The notes under the pieces were generated by a model, which had not been told where the DNA came from, searched no databases, and saw only the letters and a program-made list of their open reading frames with translations. Source: Halostagnicola kamekurae (GTDB taxonomy: Archaea > Halobacteriota > Halobacteria > Halobacteriales > Natrialbaceae). Taken from it: DNA of 64,000 nucleotides. The position numbers were made by a program, and so were the translations under genes. The stretch is taken from the NCBI RefSeq assembly GCF_900116205.1, contig NZ_FOZS01000001.1, positions 1,364,001 through 1,428,000 of the forward strand, in the 5' to 3' direction. Positions 7,879 to 15,026 of this stretch are shown piece after piece. Each line of letters begins with the position of its first letter. Position 1 is the first letter of the stretch.

Positions 7879-8256
7879 TCATAGCCCCAGCATCAGCGGC
7901 CCGATGAGCACGCCCATCAGGTGCACGCGGCGCGCCCGAAGGCGGACCGGAACCAGTCCGACCGCGGTCGCGACGACGAACACGCCGATACCGACGAGTC
8001 CGGTGAACAGATAGGAAAGCGCGAGCAACAGCCCGAGGACCACCACCGAGATCTTCCAGTAGGCGAGACGTCCCACGAACTCGAGATACGCGTCACCCAG
8101 CACGATCACGAGGACGAAACCGGCCAGTCCGGCGATGACAATACTCGAGAGCAATATCGGCACGTCGAGCGGTGCGTTCACGTTGTCGAATGCGATCATG
8201 ACGCCGGTTCGGGGCTGTCCGAGCGAGACGAGCGCGAACAGCGCGAAGATCGAGTT
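7879..8256 (-). pseudogene. 3' fragment of a tctA/DUF112-type permease gene split by an integrated element
   Basis: Read on the minus strand, codons NSIFALFALVSLG begin at 8256 and run into MIAFDNVNAPLDVPILL, giving 125 residues with two or three hydrophobic segments to a stop at 7879. This is the C-terminal part of a tripartite tricarboxylate transporter large permease (TctA/DUF112). The missing 288 N-terminal codons are found intact at 13692-14555 on the same strand, beyond the integrated element. Joining at the 11-bp repeat restores one frame of 413 residues. The isolated fragment could at most be translated from ATG 8199 and should not be functional alone. Confidence 0.85.
8246..8256. repeat. 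Left attachment core (attL), 11-bp direct repeat
   Basis: AAGATCGAGTT is found here and again at 13681-13691. It lies exactly at the point where tctA coding sequence ends, encoding N-S-I-F on the minus strand. It marks the left boundary of the integrated element. Confidence 0.85.
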
Positions 8257-8281
8257 GGTGTCTCCTTAGTATTACCTCGTA
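8257..8281. repeat. Left terminal imperfect inverted repeat of the element
   Basis: These 25 bp start right after the attL core. Compared with the reverse complement of 13656-13680 they match at 20 of 25 positions. The inner block AGTATTACcTCGTA (8268-8281) matches 13 of 14. The position directly beside the crossover core fits an integrase binding site. Confidence 0.75.
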
Positions 8282-8314
8282 ACACCCAAGACAACGGGGA
8301 CTAACAACATCACC

Positions 8315-8860
8315 ATGACTGATTGGGAACACATCACGCTGAAGGTTGAACCGGACACGAAAGAGGAATGGAAAAAGTATGCTGAGGAACACCCGGAAGC
8401 GGGGAACTTGAGCCACCTAATCCGGCTTTCTGTTCATAACGAGATGAATACTGAGTCGGAGTTAGATGACGCGCATGTCCCCAAAGAAGATGAGCGGATA
8501 GGTGAGTTGATTGAGAGCGTCAACCAGATTCACGATACTCTTGACACGGTGCAAGCCCGGATTTCTACGCTGGAGCATGATTCAGAAGTCACAGAAGGGT
8601 TTGACATGCAGAAGGCCGTCTTGTCTTTCCTTCCGACTCCGCCGGAATCGGCTCTTGTTCCTAACCCCGATTCCACAGGGTCACACGTCTACAATGACGC
8701 AGACTTTGACGAGTGGGCCGCTACTCCTGAAGGGATTTCCGAACAACTGGGTTCCAACGAGGCTGATGTGAGGGATGCCCTTCAACGTCTTGAGAGCGTC
8801 ACAGGTCTTGTAGATAGTAAGTCGAGTGACAGCCAGATTTACTACTGGAAGAAAGAATGA
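8315..8860 (+). CDS. DNA-binding protein: RHH-like N-terminus, coiled coil, winged-helix-like C-terminus
   Basis: A 181-residue protein, first gene of the element. Residues 1-50 (ITLKVEPDTKEEWKKYAEE and SHLIRLSVHNEM) look like a ribbon-helix-helix unit. Residues about 60-95 (IGELIESVNQIHDTLDTV) should form a coiled coil. The C-terminus from about 125 (EGISEQLGSNEADVRDALQR) reads as a winged helix. Its stop overlaps the integrase start as ATGA, so it is probably made with the integrase. A role as excisionase or directionality/repressor factor is an inference from position. It sits just inside the left attachment site. Confidence 0.75.
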   Translation: MTDWEHITLKVEPDTKEEWKKYAEEHPEAGNLSHLIRLSVHNEMNTESELDDAHVPKEDERIGELIESVNQIHDTLDTVQARISTLEHDSEVTEGFDMQKAVLSFLPTPPESALVPNPDSTGSHVYNDADFDEWAATPEGISEQLGSNEADVRDALQRLESVTGLVDSKSSDSQIYYWKKE

Positions 8861-9864
8861 CTGGGTTAGAAACCCTCACTGACCGCTGGCAGGACGAAGA
8901 TGAGTGGAAGGTCATCAAGAGACTTGAGCGGAAAAAAGGCAAATCTACATTTCAAGAGTATGAGCGGCATTGCCGCCAGTTCCGCGAGTGGTTGGATGGC
9001 AAGAGCCTCTTTGAGGCGGACGAGCTTGACATAGAGGATTGCATCATCGACATGATATATGATGGATACTCTGTTTCGTCGGTAAATATCCGTCATGCCG
9101 CTCTTGGTGAGTTTTTCACCGAAGCTGAGCGGCTTAACGGCAAGCGGATAGACGTGCCCCTCAATGGGAATCCTGTTGAAGAATTGCCGAAGCTGAAGGA
9201 AATTAAGCCGTACAAAGACGCTCTCAATGCCAGAGAAAGCCGAGATGATGGAGTTTGGTTTCTTGAACCAAATGACGTAAGGCAGGTAGCTGAGAATGTT
9301 CCGAAGCCGTACACTCGAAATGAGCTTCTTGTACGACTTTGCTTCCAAACCGGGATGCGAAGGAACGAACTCGTTCAAATCGAACTCGAGCATGTGGACT
9401 TTCAGAACCGTGTTATCACAATCCCGCCCGAGAACGCGAAGAACGGCGAGGAGCGAAAGGTCGGTTACCAATCCACACTTGACGCTCTTATGAGCCATTG
9501 GATTGATACAGTTCGTCCGACCGTTGCAATGGCTTCGGAAAGTGACTATCTATTCCCGAGCAACCGGAGTAAACACATCTCAGGACAGACCTTCAATGAT
9601 GTAGTTGTTGAAGCCGCTGATAACGCTGGAATCCAAGGAACGAGGATGACAAACCGAGCCGGGGAGGAGCGTGCTAAAGTGACTGCTCACGTTCTGAGGC
9701 ATAGTTTTGCGATGGCCGCCAAGTCAAACGGTTGGGATATTTACGCTCTGGCGAAGGCGATGGGTCACTCATCAGTCTCCGTGACTGAGGAAACATATCT
9801 CCACGATGATAATGAGTACATCCTAAACCACTACAGGGATGACGGACCCGGACGGCAGGAATAG
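8857..9864 (+). CDS. int: Tyrosine recombinase/integrase (XerC/D fold, SNJ2-integrase-like)
   Basis: A 335-residue tyrosine recombinase. An N-terminal SAM-like core-binding domain (about 15-115) precedes the catalytic domain with GMRRNE (Arg168), HVLRH (His278, Arg281), MGHSS (His304) and TYLH (Tyr314 nucleophile). All canonical residues are present, so it should be active. It would recombine the 11-bp cores at 8246 and 13681, integrating or excising the element. It overlaps the preceding DNA-binding gene by 4 bp (ATGA). Lower G+C than the host genes fits a transferred origin. Confidence 0.92.
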   Translation: MTGLETLTDRWQDEDEWKVIKRLERKKGKSTFQEYERHCRQFREWLDGKSLFEADELDIEDCIIDMIYDGYSVSSVNIRHAALGEFFTEAERLNGKRIDVPLNGNPVEELPKLKEIKPYKDALNARESRDDGVWFLEPNDVRQVAENVPKPYTRNELLVRLCFQTGMRRNELVQIELEHVDFQNRVITIPPENAKNGEERKVGYQSTLDALMSHWIDTVRPTVAMASESDYLFPSNRSKHISGQTFNDVVVEAADNAGIQGTRMTNRAGEERAKVTAHVLRHSFAMAAKSNGWDIYALAKAMGHSSVSVTEETYLHDDNEYILNHYRDDGPGRQE

Positions 9865-10185
9865 TCAACACACGAACTCCTCGAAAACTTAATCAAAGTA
9901 AATCATATTTTCTTGGGAAAGTCAGGGACGTCATGGGGGTAAAGAAGGCTCCGGCCCCCTCGTTTTCGGCCATTCCAAGCCATTTATTACCGAAATCGGG
10001 GGAATTGGGGTGGGTGGGGGTTGTTTCAATTTAGCAACTTAAAGTCATATCTCTGGCTTTGACTACCGGCCCCATCATTAATATACTATAATTATGAATT
10101 TTATTTCTTTTAAAAAGGGGCTCTTCTTATCACTATAAGTGAGCGGGAGTCGGAGAAAAATAAGACATCCCGTTGGCTAAACAAC
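9865..10185. other. AT-rich intergenic region of the element; candidate replication origin and promoter
   Basis: About 320 bp without a supported gene. It contains a G-run (GGGGTGGGTGGGGG near 10010), then a very AT-rich stretch (about 10075-10125) that would melt easily, then CACTATAAGTG about 50 bp before the ATG at 10186, a possible TATA box. Placement upstream of a rolling-circle Rep operon makes it the best candidate for the element's origin. I could not identify a nick site with certainty. Confidence 0.35.
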
Positions 10186-10344
10186 ATGACTGACTTAGAG
10201 AAAGACATCAAAGTTACGCCGAAAGTTCACAAGAAACTGCAACGTGCAAAACTCGAGATGTATGGAGCAGAGTCCGCCCGGTTCAGCGACGTTATTGAGG
10301 CTCTGACCGACCAAGTACTTAATGAGGGTGAGACGGATGAGTAG
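10186..10344 (+). CDS. Small ribbon-helix-helix-like protein (52 aa)
   Basis: ATG 10186 to TAG 10344. The protein begins MTDLEKDIKVTPKVHKKL and continues through SARFSDVIEAL, a strand-helix-helix pattern typical of small RHH repressors. It comes just before the duplicated-unit protein, whose ATG (10337) overlaps this stop region in a different frame, so the two are likely translationally coupled. A role as copy-number or autorepressor of the Rep operon is inferred from position only. Confidence 0.6.
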   Translation: MTDLEKDIKVTPKVHKKLQRAKLEMYGAESARFSDVIEALTDQVLNEGETDE

Positions 10345-10744
10345 TGATACAACTGTTGCCTCTGGACCGAGGAGGACTTGTATTTATCTTACTGTTGATG
10401 AGTTTAACACTCTCTCTGACGAATTTCGTGCGTCCCCTCTCGCCGAAGATAACCAAGATACGTACGAGAACAACCATCCTACGGCTGAGTACATCCGTCA
10501 ACTTCTCGAAGAACCTGTCGAGATTGATATGAGTGATTATGATGCAACGCCCCCATCGTCGCGGGAGTACAGTCGGAGTATTACGATTCTCTTTCCCGAG
10601 GGCCAATACCAAGACCTCCGAGAGAAATTCGCGCAAACACCATTGCACGATGACAAAAATGCACGAGGGACCTACGCAGGTAACTCTGCGTTCAGTGAGT
10701 ACCTGCGGCGATACCTTCGCCACTACTTGAACAAAGACGAGTAA
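10337..10744 (+). CDS. Unknown protein made of two tandem copies of one short unit (135 aa)
   Basis: Start chosen at ATG 10337, overlapping the previous gene; an in-frame ATG at 10322 is less likely. Residues about 14-57 and 81-127 share one pattern: F, then PL, then D, then TY, then N, then EY(I/L)R and L. F30/F98, PL34/PL102, TY42/TY112 and EY51/EY121 line up with a two-residue indel. The unit begins with a strand (CIYLTV and SITILF), so it may be an RHH-like dimerising fold duplicated in one chain. I do not recognise the family. It lies 36 bp before rep. Confidence 0.7.
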   Translation: MSSDTTVASGPRRTCIYLTVDEFNTLSDEFRASPLAEDNQDTYENNHPTAEYIRQLLEEPVEIDMSDYDATPPSSREYSRSITILFPEGQYQDLREKFAQTPLHDDKNARGTYAGNSAFSEYLRRYLRHYLNKDE

Positions 10745-10780
10745 ACACACGCGGCGCAACCCCAGACGAACTAATTCTAT

Positions 10781-12070
10781 ATGGACCATGAAGTAACGAC
10801 CAGCGGAGAGTACGAGGGCGGCGTGTGTTTACCGTCTCCTGATAGCGACGGGCATACTTGTCCAAGCGCAAAAATTGGTACTCCCCGAAGCGAAACGCAG
10901 TTACTGGCCGAAGACTCACCAGTTGACCTTACCGTCAAGGAGCTTGCAGGGTTGACCCTTGCCGAAGCGACAGACGTCTACAAGGCCCACAGAGCGGGGG
11001 AAGCCGCTAACGAGAGGTATACATCGGGAACCCTTCTCGGGCGAGCAAGACGGCGCTACGGTGCTTTGCTGTCCACTGATAGACAACTCCGACAGGAGTA
11101 CGATAACCCAACAGTGGCCATGCTCACACTCACTGCCAACCCCGTCTTCGGCGGGGAGTGGATTACCCCCCTCGAGCATACTGAAGCTCTTACCGAACCT
11201 CTGAGCAACGTCTTTGCTACGCTCCGCTACCACCTTCGGGAGTACAAGTTTGAGTATGCCGCTGTCCGGGGAGCGACGGACCAAGGCGTTAGCCATTGGC
11301 ACATTGTCATGTGGATTGACGGCAATCCCTCACCCGACACTTTTGCACCTGCTGTCGAGTCATTCATCAACAATTGTGATATAGCGAGCCAAGAACAACA
11401 CCCGCTCGAGGATGCCGTCAAGGTCAACACTATCCCATCGCAGGATTTGAAGCCCATCGGCAAGACCGACCGGGAGCGAGGGACAGTCTCAAAGCTCTCC
11501 CGTTACGTCGCTACGCAAATTCCGCATGTCTCTGGGGTTGACGATATGTCTGAAGCCGAAGCCATGCAGGGAGCGATTGAGTGGGCCGCTTCATCTCGAG
11601 GCTTCCGCACCTCTTCAGGAATCCAACTAACCAATGTTGAAGACAGGAACACTTGTCGAAGCACAAAAAAGTCAAAAAGAACCATTGTTGAGAAACCCTC
11701 GGAGGAACCCCACAACGAGAAAAGCAAGAGCAATCCATGCCATGAGGTATTCGAGATTGGAAGCCAAGTTCAGGAGAGTCCAAGACAGCTTCCACGAGTG
11801 GAACACCGAATCCATAACTTGACCCCACTGCCCACTTGTTCGTGGCCGAAGTGTCATAAAAGTTATAGACATTATCTGTTCCAAAGCCCTGAAAAGAACT
11901 GCTACAAATGGGGCGGTAAGAATAGCCACCAAAGCTTCCCGCCCCCTCATGTTCAGCTTAGGCGGGGTAAAGTCTCCATGCCCAGTTCACTGGAACGGTC
12001 CCATCCGCGATTTGATTTCGGACGAACCGGCGAAGACTTTTCAGTGTCTTCTTCGAGCGTGCCTCGCTAA
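10781..12070 (+). CDS. rep: HUH-endonuclease rolling-circle replication initiator (Rep)
   Basis: The first 285 or so residues are a Rep: motif 1 MLTLTAN (114-120), motif 2 SHWHIVMW with the HUH histidines His172 and His174, and motif 3 LSRYVATQ with the nicking Tyr242, followed by WAASSRGFRTSSG. One catalytic Tyr suggests a plasmid/pleolipovirus-type Rep. It would nick the origin and start replication of the excised circle. Residues 286-429 are Arg/Ser/Pro-rich and overlap an antisense membrane-protein gene and the end of an antisense HTH gene, so the true C-terminus is doubtful; the tail could be run-on sequence after a frameshift. N-terminus from ATG 10781 is plausible. Confidence 0.82.
   Translation: MDHEVTTSGEYEGGVCLPSPDSDGHTCPSAKIGTPRSETQLLAEDSPVDLTVKELAGLTLAEATDVYKAHRAGEAANERYTSGTLLGRARRRYGALLSTDRQLRQEYDNPTVAMLTLTANPVFGGEWITPLEHTEALTEPLSNVFATLRYHLREYKFEYAAVRGATDQGVSHWHIVMWIDGNPSPDTFAPAVESFINNCDIASQEQHPLEDAVKVNTIPSQDLKPIGKTDRERGTVSKLSRYVATQIPHVSGVDDMSEAEAMQGAIEWAASSRGFRTSSGIQLTNVEDRNTCRSTKKSKRTIVEKPSEEPHNEKSKSNPCHEVFEIGSQVQESPRQLPRVEHRIHNLTPLPTCSWPKCHKSYRHYLFQSPEKNCYKWGGKNSHQSFPPPHVQLRRGKVSMPSSLERSHPRFDFGRTGEDFSVSSSSVPR
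11672..11950 (-). CDS. Small membrane protein (92 aa), antisense to the rep tail
   Basis: MRGREALVAILTAPFVAVLF opens a hydrophobic helix (about residues 5-30), and LEYLMAWIALAFLVVGFL (about 67-85) is a second, with a short amphipathic middle part. Hydrophobic segments this coherent are unlikely to be a shadow; the rep frame opposite is Arg-rich, as expected opposite a membrane protein. The ATG lies 7 bp after the stop of the HTH gene on the same strand, so they would be one operon. Function unknown. Confidence 0.5.
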   Translation of the reverse strand: MRGREALVAILTAPFVAVLFRALEQIMSITFMTLRPRTSGQWGQVMDSVFHSWKLSWTLLNLASNLEYLMAWIALAFLVVGFLRGFLNNGSF

Positions 12071-12359
12071 GTCGTTCAGGAGCATACTTCTTGACTGCCC
12101 AGAGTAGCCCCTTTCGGCTCGTTAGAACCTCTAAATCGCTATCGTCGTCATTTCGCTCGAAGACATAACCGATAACTGGAGTATTTCGGTCTCCGTCGAT
12201 TCTGTCTTCTTCCATAGCGTCCATAGCGAGCGAATAGGCGTAACTGTGGCTGATGTCGAGTTCATCAGCGATGTCCGACACAGACACCTTTCCTGATTTA
12301 TTTACGAACTCTACGAGCTGGTCGATTTGGTCTTGACGTGATGCCATATCTTGTGACAT
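11958..12359 (-). CDS. Winged helix-turn-helix DNA-binding protein
   Basis: Start chosen at ATG 12359 (MSQDMASRQDQ), 133 residues; the frame upstream to 12542 does not read like protein. Residues about 8-50 (IDQLVEFVNKSGKVSVSDI then LDISHSYAYSLAMDAM) form a clear wHTH. The rest (LLWAVKKYAPERL, KTLKSLRRFVRNQI) is helical and basic. It is encoded opposite to rep, a common arrangement for an element's regulator, and is followed by the small membrane protein. Control of integrase or rep expression is an inference. Confidence 0.7.
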   Translation of the reverse strand: MSQDMASRQDQIDQLVEFVNKSGKVSVSDIADELDISHSYAYSLAMDAMEEDRIDGDRNTPVIGYVFERNDDDSDLEVLTSRKGLLWAVKKYAPERLSEARSKKTLKSLRRFVRNQIADGTVPVNWAWRLYPA

Positions 12360-12594
12360 ATTTGCCAGCCCGATTTTTTGGGTAAAGCTTACATTGCTCC
12401 TGCTACCAGTCTGTGTCACAACCACACCGACAGGCAACAGTCCCAAGTCGGGCTGAAAGGTTCGGTTCAACCTCATTGGCTCGCTCGCAACTTTGGCAGG
12501 TGGAGAACGAGCCTCAGTCGGTCGGTGCATGGTATCCAACATATTTCTTCAGGGTCCAACCCGCATTAGTGCGGTCTCTTCTGATTCCCAATAG

Positions 12595-13476
12595 GTGATG
12601 GCCGTTAAAAAGACTTTTGTGGAGGTAGTTATGCCATCAGAGATTACTCGATTGTTCTTGATAGTACGGAATCACCCATACTATAAGTGGTTTCGCGACT
12701 CCGGTATAAGTATGCAACAGTCAGAATTTGATTTCAAGGTAGAGAATCGAGTCCATATCATGCCAATCGGGTTTGAGTTTGACCGGGCGCACCTCCCTGC
12801 TAAGGAATTGAAAGCTGATACAGTCATCCTGCTAATGCATGAGTCCGACGATGATGATGAAGAAGACCGAATAAAGGAAATTCAAGATAAGCTGGATGAA
12901 TATGGAATAGACTCCGAGAAGGATAAATGTAGGCTTTTCAATATGTATGATGCTCTCGGCATGATTGCCGAGAAGATTAACGAGTTCAGTTCGGAAGATG
13001 TGTACGTGAATCTATCAACGGGTGGAAAAGTGACCGCGATTGCAGGGATGATTGCCTGTATGGTTGCTGATGCAACTCCTTATTATGTTCAAGCGAAAGA
13101 TTATGGCCCAACACCGCCCGAAGGAGTCGCTGAAATAACAAAGCTACCACGCTATCCAATTGATTCGCCAGATTATCAAGAAATTGCAGTTCTAAATTTC
13201 ATCAAGGAAAGAACGTCAGAGGACTCAGCCCCAACAAAGGGAGAACTAATTGAATTTGGGGAGGAGATAGGTCTACCGTTCATTGCAGACCATGATGTAG
13301 AACAGAAAGGAAAATACCGGCTCTTAGACAACCACGTAATAAACCCCTTGGAAGATGATGGGTATGTTACCACAGAAAAGAAAGGTCGTGAGAAAATCGT
13401 GAAACTCACTTCCGATGGACAGAACACCCTCCATGCATTTCGGTATCTTATCGAGGATGAATATACTGTGGAGTAG
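12595..13476 (+). CDS. HFX_2341/DUF6293-like protein: CARF-type Rossmann domain plus winged helix
   Basis: VHIMPIGFEFDR begins a Rossmann-like domain that includes VILLMHESDDDDE, YVNLSTGGKVTAIAG (the NxSTGGK-type ligand loop of CARF-like domains) and TPYYVQAKDYG. The C-terminal 90 residues (AVLNFIKERT to EKIVKLTSDGQN) form a winged helix. This matches the haloarchaeal HFX_2341 regulators, distant relatives of CRISPR-linked Csa3. Family logic suggests nucleotide-ligand sensing and DNA binding; no cas or cyclase gene is nearby. The start is uncertain: ATG 12712, about 29 bp after a TATA-like ACTATAAG, would fit the family N-terminus better than 12595, which has its own GGTG before ATG. Low G+C; it is cargo beside attR. 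Confidence 0.75.
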   Translation: MMAVKKTFVEVVMPSEITRLFLIVRNHPYYKWFRDSGISMQQSEFDFKVENRVHIMPIGFEFDRAHLPAKELKADTVILLMHESDDDDEEDRIKEIQDKLDEYGIDSEKDKCRLFNMYDALGMIAEKINEFSSEDVYVNLSTGGKVTAIAGMIACMVADATPYYVQAKDYGPTPPEGVAEITKLPRYPIDSPDYQEIAVLNFIKERTSEDSAPTKGELIEFGEEIGLPFIADHDVEQKGKYRLLDNHVINPLEDDGYVTTEKKGREKIVKLTSDGQNTLHAFRYLIEDEYTVE

Positions 13477-13655
13477 TTAATTCCATCCAAATAAAGTTGA
13501 TATATACCGGAAATTTGGACGTGTGTCTGTTAAAAATCTGGACTACCCAATTCGGTTCGAAATTCGTTCCGTTGTTCAAAATATATAAAAAATCACTCTA
13601 CTAACACGGTTATATGATGCACCAACTATTAGTGGTTAGAAGTAATTCTACGTAA

Positions 13656-13680
13656 TACGAAGTAATACTGAGTGGACACA
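13656..13680. repeat. Right terminal imperfect inverted repeat of the element
   Basis: Partner of 8257-8281, lying directly inside the attR core with the same 11-bp spacing between the core and the conserved block (13656-13669). A further copy of the AAGTAAT unit lies at about 13640, so this end may hold two integrase-binding sites. Confidence 0.75.
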
Positions 13681-13691
13681 AAGATCGAGTT
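13681..13691. repeat. Right attachment core (attR), 11-bp direct repeat
   Basis: Second copy of AAGATCGAGTT, in the same orientation as 8246-8256. It sits where the 5' tctA fragment breaks off. Removing one copy with the intervening DNA rebuilds the permease frame. Confidence 0.85.
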
Positions 13692-14555
13692 TGCCGTGTC
13701 GACGCCGCTCGTCGCGACGATGTACCCCCGATTCCCCGATTCGCCTGGAACGAAGACGAGGACGGCGACCGCAGCGATAGCCGCCGAGATACCCGGAACG
13801 TACCCGACGACGGCGCCCGCGAACGAACCCGCAAGCGCCGTTATCCCGACCAGCCGACGCGGCATCCGAATCGCTTCGTCGCGCTGGGGCGGGACGCCGC
13901 CGCCGCGAATCGCTTCGATCAGTACGGGTGCGCCGAACAGTCCGGCGAAAAGCGGCGCGAGCATCCCGCCGGCCTCGAGGGGCGCGTCGGGGGTGAGATC
14001 GAGCGTCGCCGCGCCGAGTGCCGTCGCCAGACCGAACGAGAGGGCGGCCCCCGCACATCGCTTCCAGGTGCGCTCCGAGGCGATCAGTGCGACGACGACC
14101 ATCGCGAGCACGATCGAGAGGTTCGCGCTGATCGTCGGATAGACGGCAGTGACGCCCCAGGTGATCGGGAGCGCGAGCGGGACCGCCGCGAGAACTGCGA
14201 GCAGACTCCCGAGCGCGGAGAGGCGGATCGCCTCGTACCCGCGGCCCTCGAGCACCATTCGGTGTGCGGGCAGCGCGGTGACCGCCATCTCGGCGTCCGG
14301 CACTCCGAGCGCCATCGCCGGAACGGCGTTGACGAACGTGTGGACGACGCCAGCCGCGAGCATCGCACAGCCGACGAAAAGCGGCCGCCCGGGAACCGAG
14401 GGCGCGACGCCCGCCAGCAACAGCGCGAAGTTGTTCGCGTGCAGTCCCGGGATCAGCCCGCTACAGCTACCGAGGGCCGCACCCGCGAGTACCCACGCGA
14501 CGAGCTGGGCCGACAGCGCGGGATCGACCAGCGACTCGAGAACGGGGACGGCCAT
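13692..14555 (-). pseudogene. 5' part of the split tctA/DUF112-type permease gene
   Basis: Minus-strand frame from ATG 14555: 288 codons of a polytopic membrane protein with GLIPGLHANNFALLL, VPDAEMAVTALPAHRM and YVPGISAAIAAV, features of the TctA/DUF112 family of tripartite tricarboxylate transporter permeases. The frame breaks after TSGVDTA, at the right 11-bp core, and runs into about 20 element-encoded residues up to a stop at 13629. The remaining 125 codons are at 7879-8256. No TctB or TctC gene is adjacent, as is common for archaeal single-gene members. The transporter should be inactive while the element is in place. Confidence 0.87.
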
Positions 14556-14675: not shown

Positions 14676-15026
14676 TTATCCGAAGAGTTCGCCGAGACCT
14701 TCGCCGCCGTCGCCTTCGTCTTCGTCGTCTTCGTCCTCGTCGCCTCCTGCATCGGCGTCGTCGGCTTCGTCGGCTTCGTCGTCTCCACCCTCGTCAGCGC
14801 CACCTTCCGCTGCGGCCGCGCCGCCCGCTGCGCCGCCCGCGGCGGGAACTGCTGCGGCCTCGTCGACGGCCTCGTCGATGTCGACGTCCTCGAGCGCGGC
14901 GACGAGCGCCTTGACTCGAGACTCTTCGACGTCGACGCCGGCCGCGTCGAGTACGTCCGTCAGGTTGTCTTCGTTGATCTCTTCGTCCGCTTCGTTCAGG
15001 ATGAGTGCAGCGTATACGTATTCCAT
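14676..15026 (-). CDS. rpl12: Large-subunit ribosomal protein P1 (archaeal L12, stalk)
   Basis: A 116-residue stalk protein. [17 protein letters not shown] is the archaeal P1 N-terminal dimerisation domain. A Gly/Ala-rich hinge, a long Asp/Glu run and the conserved C-terminal GLGELFG, which recruits GTPase factors, follow. It is last in the L1-L10-L12 operon, starting 14 bp after the P0 stop. Typical length and layout. Confidence 0.97.

Follow-up and report, generated by a model that had tools for sequence, protein, structure and literature searches.

In a 64,000-nucleotide stretch of the Halostagnicola kamekurae genome (the window), two 11-bp cores bound a 5.4-kb element (8246–13691) that, judging from its gene content, we read as an integrated small rolling-circle-type plasmid. 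Inside the cores lie inverted arms, which diverged relatives have at the same distance from their cores. We consider it probable that the plasmid has a symmetric attP, with the integrase working on the core and adjoining spacers and the outer arms occupied by a partner protein whose gene immediately precedes that of the integrase. We read this pairing of symmetric arms and partner as a new form of tyrosine-recombinase integration.

The element and its ends

Table 1. Positions in the window of the element's ends, its genes and the host gene it interrupts.
Feature	Position	Strand	Basis or remark
Host tctA, 3' part	7879..8256	-	joined frame, Pfam, sister-species alignment
attL core AAGATCGAGTT, copy 1	8246..8256	+	direct 11-bp repeat
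Left inner inverted-repeat arm	8257..8281	+	13/14 block 8268-8281; also recurs in relatives
Partner gene, 181 aa	8315..8860	+	directly 5' of integrase gene, 4-bp overlap
Tyrosine integrase, 335 aa	8857..9864	+	PF00589
Small ORF, 52 aa	10186..10344	+	no family match
ORF, 140 aa	10322..10744	+	no family match
Rep protein (DUF1424, REP_ORF2-G2P)	10781..12070	+	family match
ORF, 194 aa, weak HTH match	11958..12542	-	family search
HFX_2341/DUF6293 regulator-like cargo gene, weakly Csa3-like	12595..13476	+	family match
Right inner inverted-repeat arm	13656..13680	-	13/14 block 13656-13669
attR core AAGATCGAGTT, copy 2	13681..13691	+	direct 11-bp repeat
Host tctA, 5' part	13681..14555	-	joined frame, Pfam

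The element's Rep is of the rolling-circle type and akin to the Reps of small plasmids: its relatives in the plasmid collection are only small Natrinema and Haloferax plasmids (1.7–2.5 kb), and it is 27–30% identical to the proteins of four small haloarchaeal plasmids over about 40% of the query. The two short ORFs that precede Rep overlap each other, and the HFX_2341/DUF6293 cargo protein shows weak kinship to the Csa3 CARF family. G+C content is 0.42–0.57 inside the element and about 0.60–0.71 in the flanks.

The core AAGATCGAGTT is present at both boundaries, as the initial annotation had it, and nowhere else in the window, where shuffling predicts 0.04 copies; two further copies in the 4.1-Mb genome are close to chance expectation. 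The 25 bp directly inside each core match one another in inverted orientation at 20 positions, with a 13/14 block at +12 to +25 that begins exactly 11 bp from each core, and our recount confirmed this earlier description in full. Among 200,000 inverted pairs of 25-mers drawn at random from the element, none matched at more than 17 positions, and the binomial probability of 20/25 is about 1e-8. The right arm carries more GTATTAC-like repeats at ~10-bp steps, as far as about 13642. An 11-bp direct repeat by itself is not significant in 64 kb, for which a rough estimate gives more than 1000 chance pairs. This frequency of short direct repeats would favor the view that the inverted repeats are fortuitous or regulatory and that the ends are set by the direct repeat alone, a view which the binomial probability and the presence of arms equally far from the core in diverged relatives, also in an arm-blind control (see below), leave with next to no credibility. 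We assigned the ends from features taken together, namely the cores, the inverted arms, a TctA frame that is restored on joining and a homologous site that is unoccupied. The ends given in the earlier description are supported; the point of strand exchange is placed only within the 11-bp core and not to a single base. Most archaeal integrases that have been studied use tRNA genes; no tRNA gene was found in the window, and no tRNA gene end lies at either boundary. The initial view of symmetric sites that come from the element, unlike tRNA-type att sites, is supported.

When the element and one core copy are removed, a TctA frame remains that is open from its ATG for about 414 residues. The Pfam matches to the N-terminal (2–298) and C-terminal (340–422) parts of TctA are separated by the element in the window, and the core reads AACTCGATCTT on the tctA coding strand, encoding NSIF. 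The joined flanks align with the unoccupied tctA of a species of the same genus at 93.2% over 2100 bp, in a single alignment that runs through the junction, and, along their entire length, with the sequences of two more congeneric species (85% and 81%). TctA is present in 38 of 41 related genomes, and a regular-expression search found the intact site in 26 of the 30 tctA loci returned. The remaining four are the occupied gene described here, a second occupied gene (L226, in genome G170), and two full-length open frames (L208, L221) whose site the expression missed. As the element offers the C-terminal part no start codon in frame, tctA is broken here. Beside the interrupted gene, a minus-strand ORF (14676–15026) resembles ribosomal protein P1/L12 by eye.

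The integrase is a tyrosine recombinase by its match to PF00589 (Phage_integrase; E 1.9e-33) and by R168, K195, H278, R281, H304 and Y314, which are invariant in an 11-row alignment and which we take to be the catalytic set of these enzymes. A weak SAM-like N-domain begins already at residue 24, and the N-terminal arm-binding domain of lambda-type heterobivalent integrases is absent. By sequence, the closest solved structures are XerA, an XerC-like protein and XerD; the XerA equivalog (NCBIfam NF040815) scored 124 bits, below its cutoff of 220, and single-sequence structure modeling returned no confident fold. An SSV-type (suicide) integrase was ruled out, as the gene is intact inside the element. 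The integrase is single-copy in its own genome. Counting that genome, matches occur in 12 of 125 genomes of the same family (E <= 1e-30), 13 of 391 of the same class (E <= 1e-50) and, with an 11-row profile, 61 of 392 of the same order (E <= 1e-60). Elsewhere, the genome_contigs collection gave no relative with the integrase alone as query and 80 loci, none haloarchaeal, with the integrase alignment; IMG/VR gave no match, and plasmid and phage collections gave distant matches only.

Recurrence of the arms in related elements

To follow the ends beyond the window we analyzed it together with the surroundings, at most 20 kb in each case, of 60 of the matched integrases, 61 loci in total. The partner gene lies directly upstream of the integrase gene in 58 of the 61, of which 44 were recognized by motif search and 14 by reading the ORFs of the 17 loci that the search had missed; in the other three no partner was found. 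No tRNA gene lies within 4.4 kb of the expected left end at any of the 61 loci, and only four stretches contain any tRNA at all. Some relatives appear to have moved recently: the integrases of L173, L175 and L177 are separated by nearly zero branch length and come from three genera in two families, which suggests recent interfamily transfer, as does the 99% identity in the catalytic part between L036 and L037, likewise from two families.

The plan shared by many of the diverged relatives (50% identity or less) consists of a core of ~11 bp, a spacer of about 11 bp and, at +12 to +31, inverted arms that carry 10–11-bp repeats. The partner start follows the left core by 44–69 bp, mostly about 60 bp, in the well-scoring loci of the 44. 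We scanned these 44 loci and 392 control windows for a direct repeat combined with an inner inverted repeat. Nine loci exceeded all 392 controls and 20 reached an empirical p < 0.05, one of which (L170) we regard as weak; the other 24 fell within the null, two of them without any candidate. Two candidates were rejected: L188, among the 20, whose long 43-bp repeat is the start of a pilin-like gene (its N-terminus), and the core AGAATGAACTGGTT at L043, a match between similar ABC-permease genes (another core was found there). The inverted repeats that the initial annotation proposed to look for at the ends of related elements were thus found, though about half of the scanned loci lack significant ends.

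As a control that ignores the arms, the direct repeat was chosen without them in the expected 38-bp interval, at the 44 loci and in 308 control windows. This yielded repeats of at least 11 bp at 25 of the 44 loci and in 44 of the 308 control windows. Between +12 and +31, inverted identity then averaged 11.4/20, compared with 7.6 (sd 1.4) under the null; 13 of the 25 loci had p < 0.03, and at the other 12 the arms alone did not reach significance. This control misses the window and L033, where another, chance repeat was selected instead of the right one, a 12-mer in the case of the window.

We also profiled 19 loci, picked partly on their arms, after removing L170, L169, L044 and L188 by hand (L044 was displayed separately). 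In these, inverted identity is about 0.52 at +1 to +5, 0.36 at +6 to +10, 0.68–0.78 at +11 to +30 and 0.24–0.29 at +36 to +45, and the center of arm symmetry is the center of the 11-bp core. Both copies of the core fit AA[CG]N5[CG]TT at 8 of the 19 loci, and the right copy only at a ninth. The arms match themselves at a lag of 10–11 bp (0.38 versus 0.263, sd 0.022), a spacing that would fit two sites on one helix face per arm.

Target genes and arm binding

Target genes were called from the joined frame plus Pfam, or from the joined frame only for L032 and L037. tctA is the target in the window, L032, L041 and L165, and in L167 by its left end only, as the right end was not found. Four elements target the gene for archaeal release factor 1, aRF1 (L034, L035, L039, L040), three an FMN oxidoreductase gene (L036, L037, L162), one an amine oxidase gene (L161) and one the volactin gene, which encodes an archaeal actin-like protein (L049). 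Further targets, some tentative (including the calls for L164, L046 and L182), are TspO, a GNAT acetyltransferase, a type II/IV secretion ATPase, KptA, enoyl-CoA hydratase ends and others. Most internal insertions receive no in-frame start from the element, according to a check that used the longest frame, which is the wrong one for L035, L041, L162, L164, L182 and L046. At aRF1 the elements sit at the gene's 5' end. In L034, L039 and L040 the element contributes both the start codon and a new N-terminal segment, which runs into the core, and the DNA of L035, read by eye, shows the same arrangement; part of the arm repeat lies inside this new coding sequence. The replacement start and N-terminus would keep aRF1, presumably an essential gene, readable.

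Two separate integrase clades, {window, L032} and {L041, L165, L167}, have tctA as their target. In the integrase tree, which omits L190 and L174 (very short or redundant rows), the second clade is starred with support 100/100, and the window joins L032 at 96/49 within a starred clade that includes L161. Both orientations of tctA relative to the integrase occur within each of the two clades. A transposon, with inverted repeats at its termini and a target duplication of 11 bp, would also present inverted ends and a short duplicated flank. However, the element gave no match to a transposase family and encodes a complete tyrosine integrase, elements of both integrase clades occupy one and the same conserved position in tctA, and the arms are centered on the core. 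We regard a transposon as very improbable and retain the reading of an integrated plasmid with a symmetric attP.

Elements with related integrases can also use different genes: L036, L037 and L162, for example, differ in target from L044, despite 64–71% identity in the catalytic part and closely similar arms. Similar arms at different target genes suggest that the core may be swapped while the arms stay. It is possible, if doubtful, that the ends form a retargetable module in which symmetric arms, carried by the element and occupied by a dedicated partner, let the same type of integrase take different 11-bp cores from conserved coding motifs in either orientation, with targets changing by core swap and aRF1 elements carrying a replacement 5' end.

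The core half-site of a tyrosine recombinase is normally ~13 bp; by analogy, such a half-site would here comprise two bases of the core and the 11-bp spacer, so that the arms would lie just outside the recombinase. The initial annotation had suggested that the symmetric block represents integrase binding sites. This we do not support, since the block at +12 to +25 lies beyond the half-site and the SAM-like domain of the integrase starts at residue 24. Since no N-terminal domain of the integrase is left over to hold the arms, the partner is the better candidate, and we infer that it is more likely than the integrase to bind the strongest arm repeat. A single-sequence model (pLDDT 42) predicts for the partner a strand-helix-helix N-terminus, a coiled coil and a winged-helix-like C-terminus. 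No ribbon-helix-helix (RHH) Pfam family matched it; an Arc-like PHROG matched marginally in 3 of 12 partner members (best E 0.013), and the best PDB profile match (E 0.14) was ArtA, which we take to be an RHH protein. The partner is perhaps an RHH protein on this evidence from prediction.

Alternatively, the arms may be secondary sites of the integrase, in the heterobivalent manner of lambda or Tn916, with the neighboring protein serving only to regulate the operon, through an operator that overlaps the left end. The similarity of arms follows that of the integrases no less closely than that of the partners: partial correlations were 0.162 for arm with integrase given partner and 0.129 for arm with partner given integrase, in a Mantel-type test for which five of the 44 loci (L190, L188, L173, L175, L177) had been set aside beforehand. 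The left arm also lies about 25–50 bp before the partner start, where an autoregulatory operator could sit. However, the integrase has no extension ahead of its SAM-like domain and its nearest solved relatives are of the Xer type, and the right arm, which is distant from the start of the operon, has these repeats too, so that they are not merely an operator. We judge secondary integrase sites to be unlikely and favor the partner as the arm binder.

In the mechanism that we propose, the circular attP would be nearly symmetric, with arm repeats, 11 bp, the core AAGATCGAGTT, another 11 bp and the arm repeats inverted. The integrase would bind the core and adjoining 11-bp spacers, and strands would be exchanged within the core, between attP and the matching tctA stretch AACTCGATCTT. 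Integration would split tctA and leave one core copy at each end. The partner would most likely sit on the arms (+12 to +31), at two helically phased sites per arm, where it may help to assemble the complex and possibly set its direction.

Comparison with known integration systems

The family offers compact, clearly bounded att sites, a partner that is nearly always adjacent and many ordinary genes as targets. This makes it a testable system for target change by a tyrosine integrase and a possible source of integration tools for haloarchaea, and draws attention to genes, tctA among them, that have been interrupted repeatedly and to the repair-by-replacement arrangement at aRF1. We found no description of the arm-and-partner architecture among the open-licence papers searched, and we make no claim that none exists. 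Among systems with likenesses, archaeal XerA/dif has an integrase of similar domain make-up, again with no separate arm-binding domain, but the present system differs in its mobile-element setting and in having arms outside the core half-sites.

Nearest in kind is IntSNJ2 of pleolipovirus SNJ2, which also combines a short core with helper proteins (PMC8371274). The partner and the SNJ2 helpers Orf2 and Orf3 may be analogous in domain make-up. By sequence, the window integrase was rejected as a member of the IntSNJ2 family, for which a review gives 30% identity over 60% of length (PMC8371274): we detected no BLASTP similarity to the HHPV4 integrase, our proxy for that of SNJ2, to which it is reported to be ~71% identical (PMC5867852). 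HHPV4 integrase matches occur in 172 of 194 genomes, including the window's own, so that the two types of integrase coexist. SNJ2 integrates at tRNA-Met, unlike the element in the window and its family, which have no tRNA within 4.4 kb of their ends. The review also asks if the short IntSNJ2 att site suffices for recombination (PMC8371274).

Attachment sites in protein-coding genes have been reported, in 14 of 68 thaumarchaeal elements and in the HMG-CoA reductase gene for a Halorubrum virus (PMC6563490, PMC8371274). The thaumarchaeal sites are 3'-distal, whereas many sites of the present family are internal at conserved motifs and those in aRF1 are 5'. Like the lambda-type attP outlined in the review (PMC8371274), the attP proposed here would combine a short shared core with outer sites carried on the element only. 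It would differ from that of lambda in its symmetric arms close to the core, in an integrase with no arm-binding domain and in the protein that likely binds the arms.
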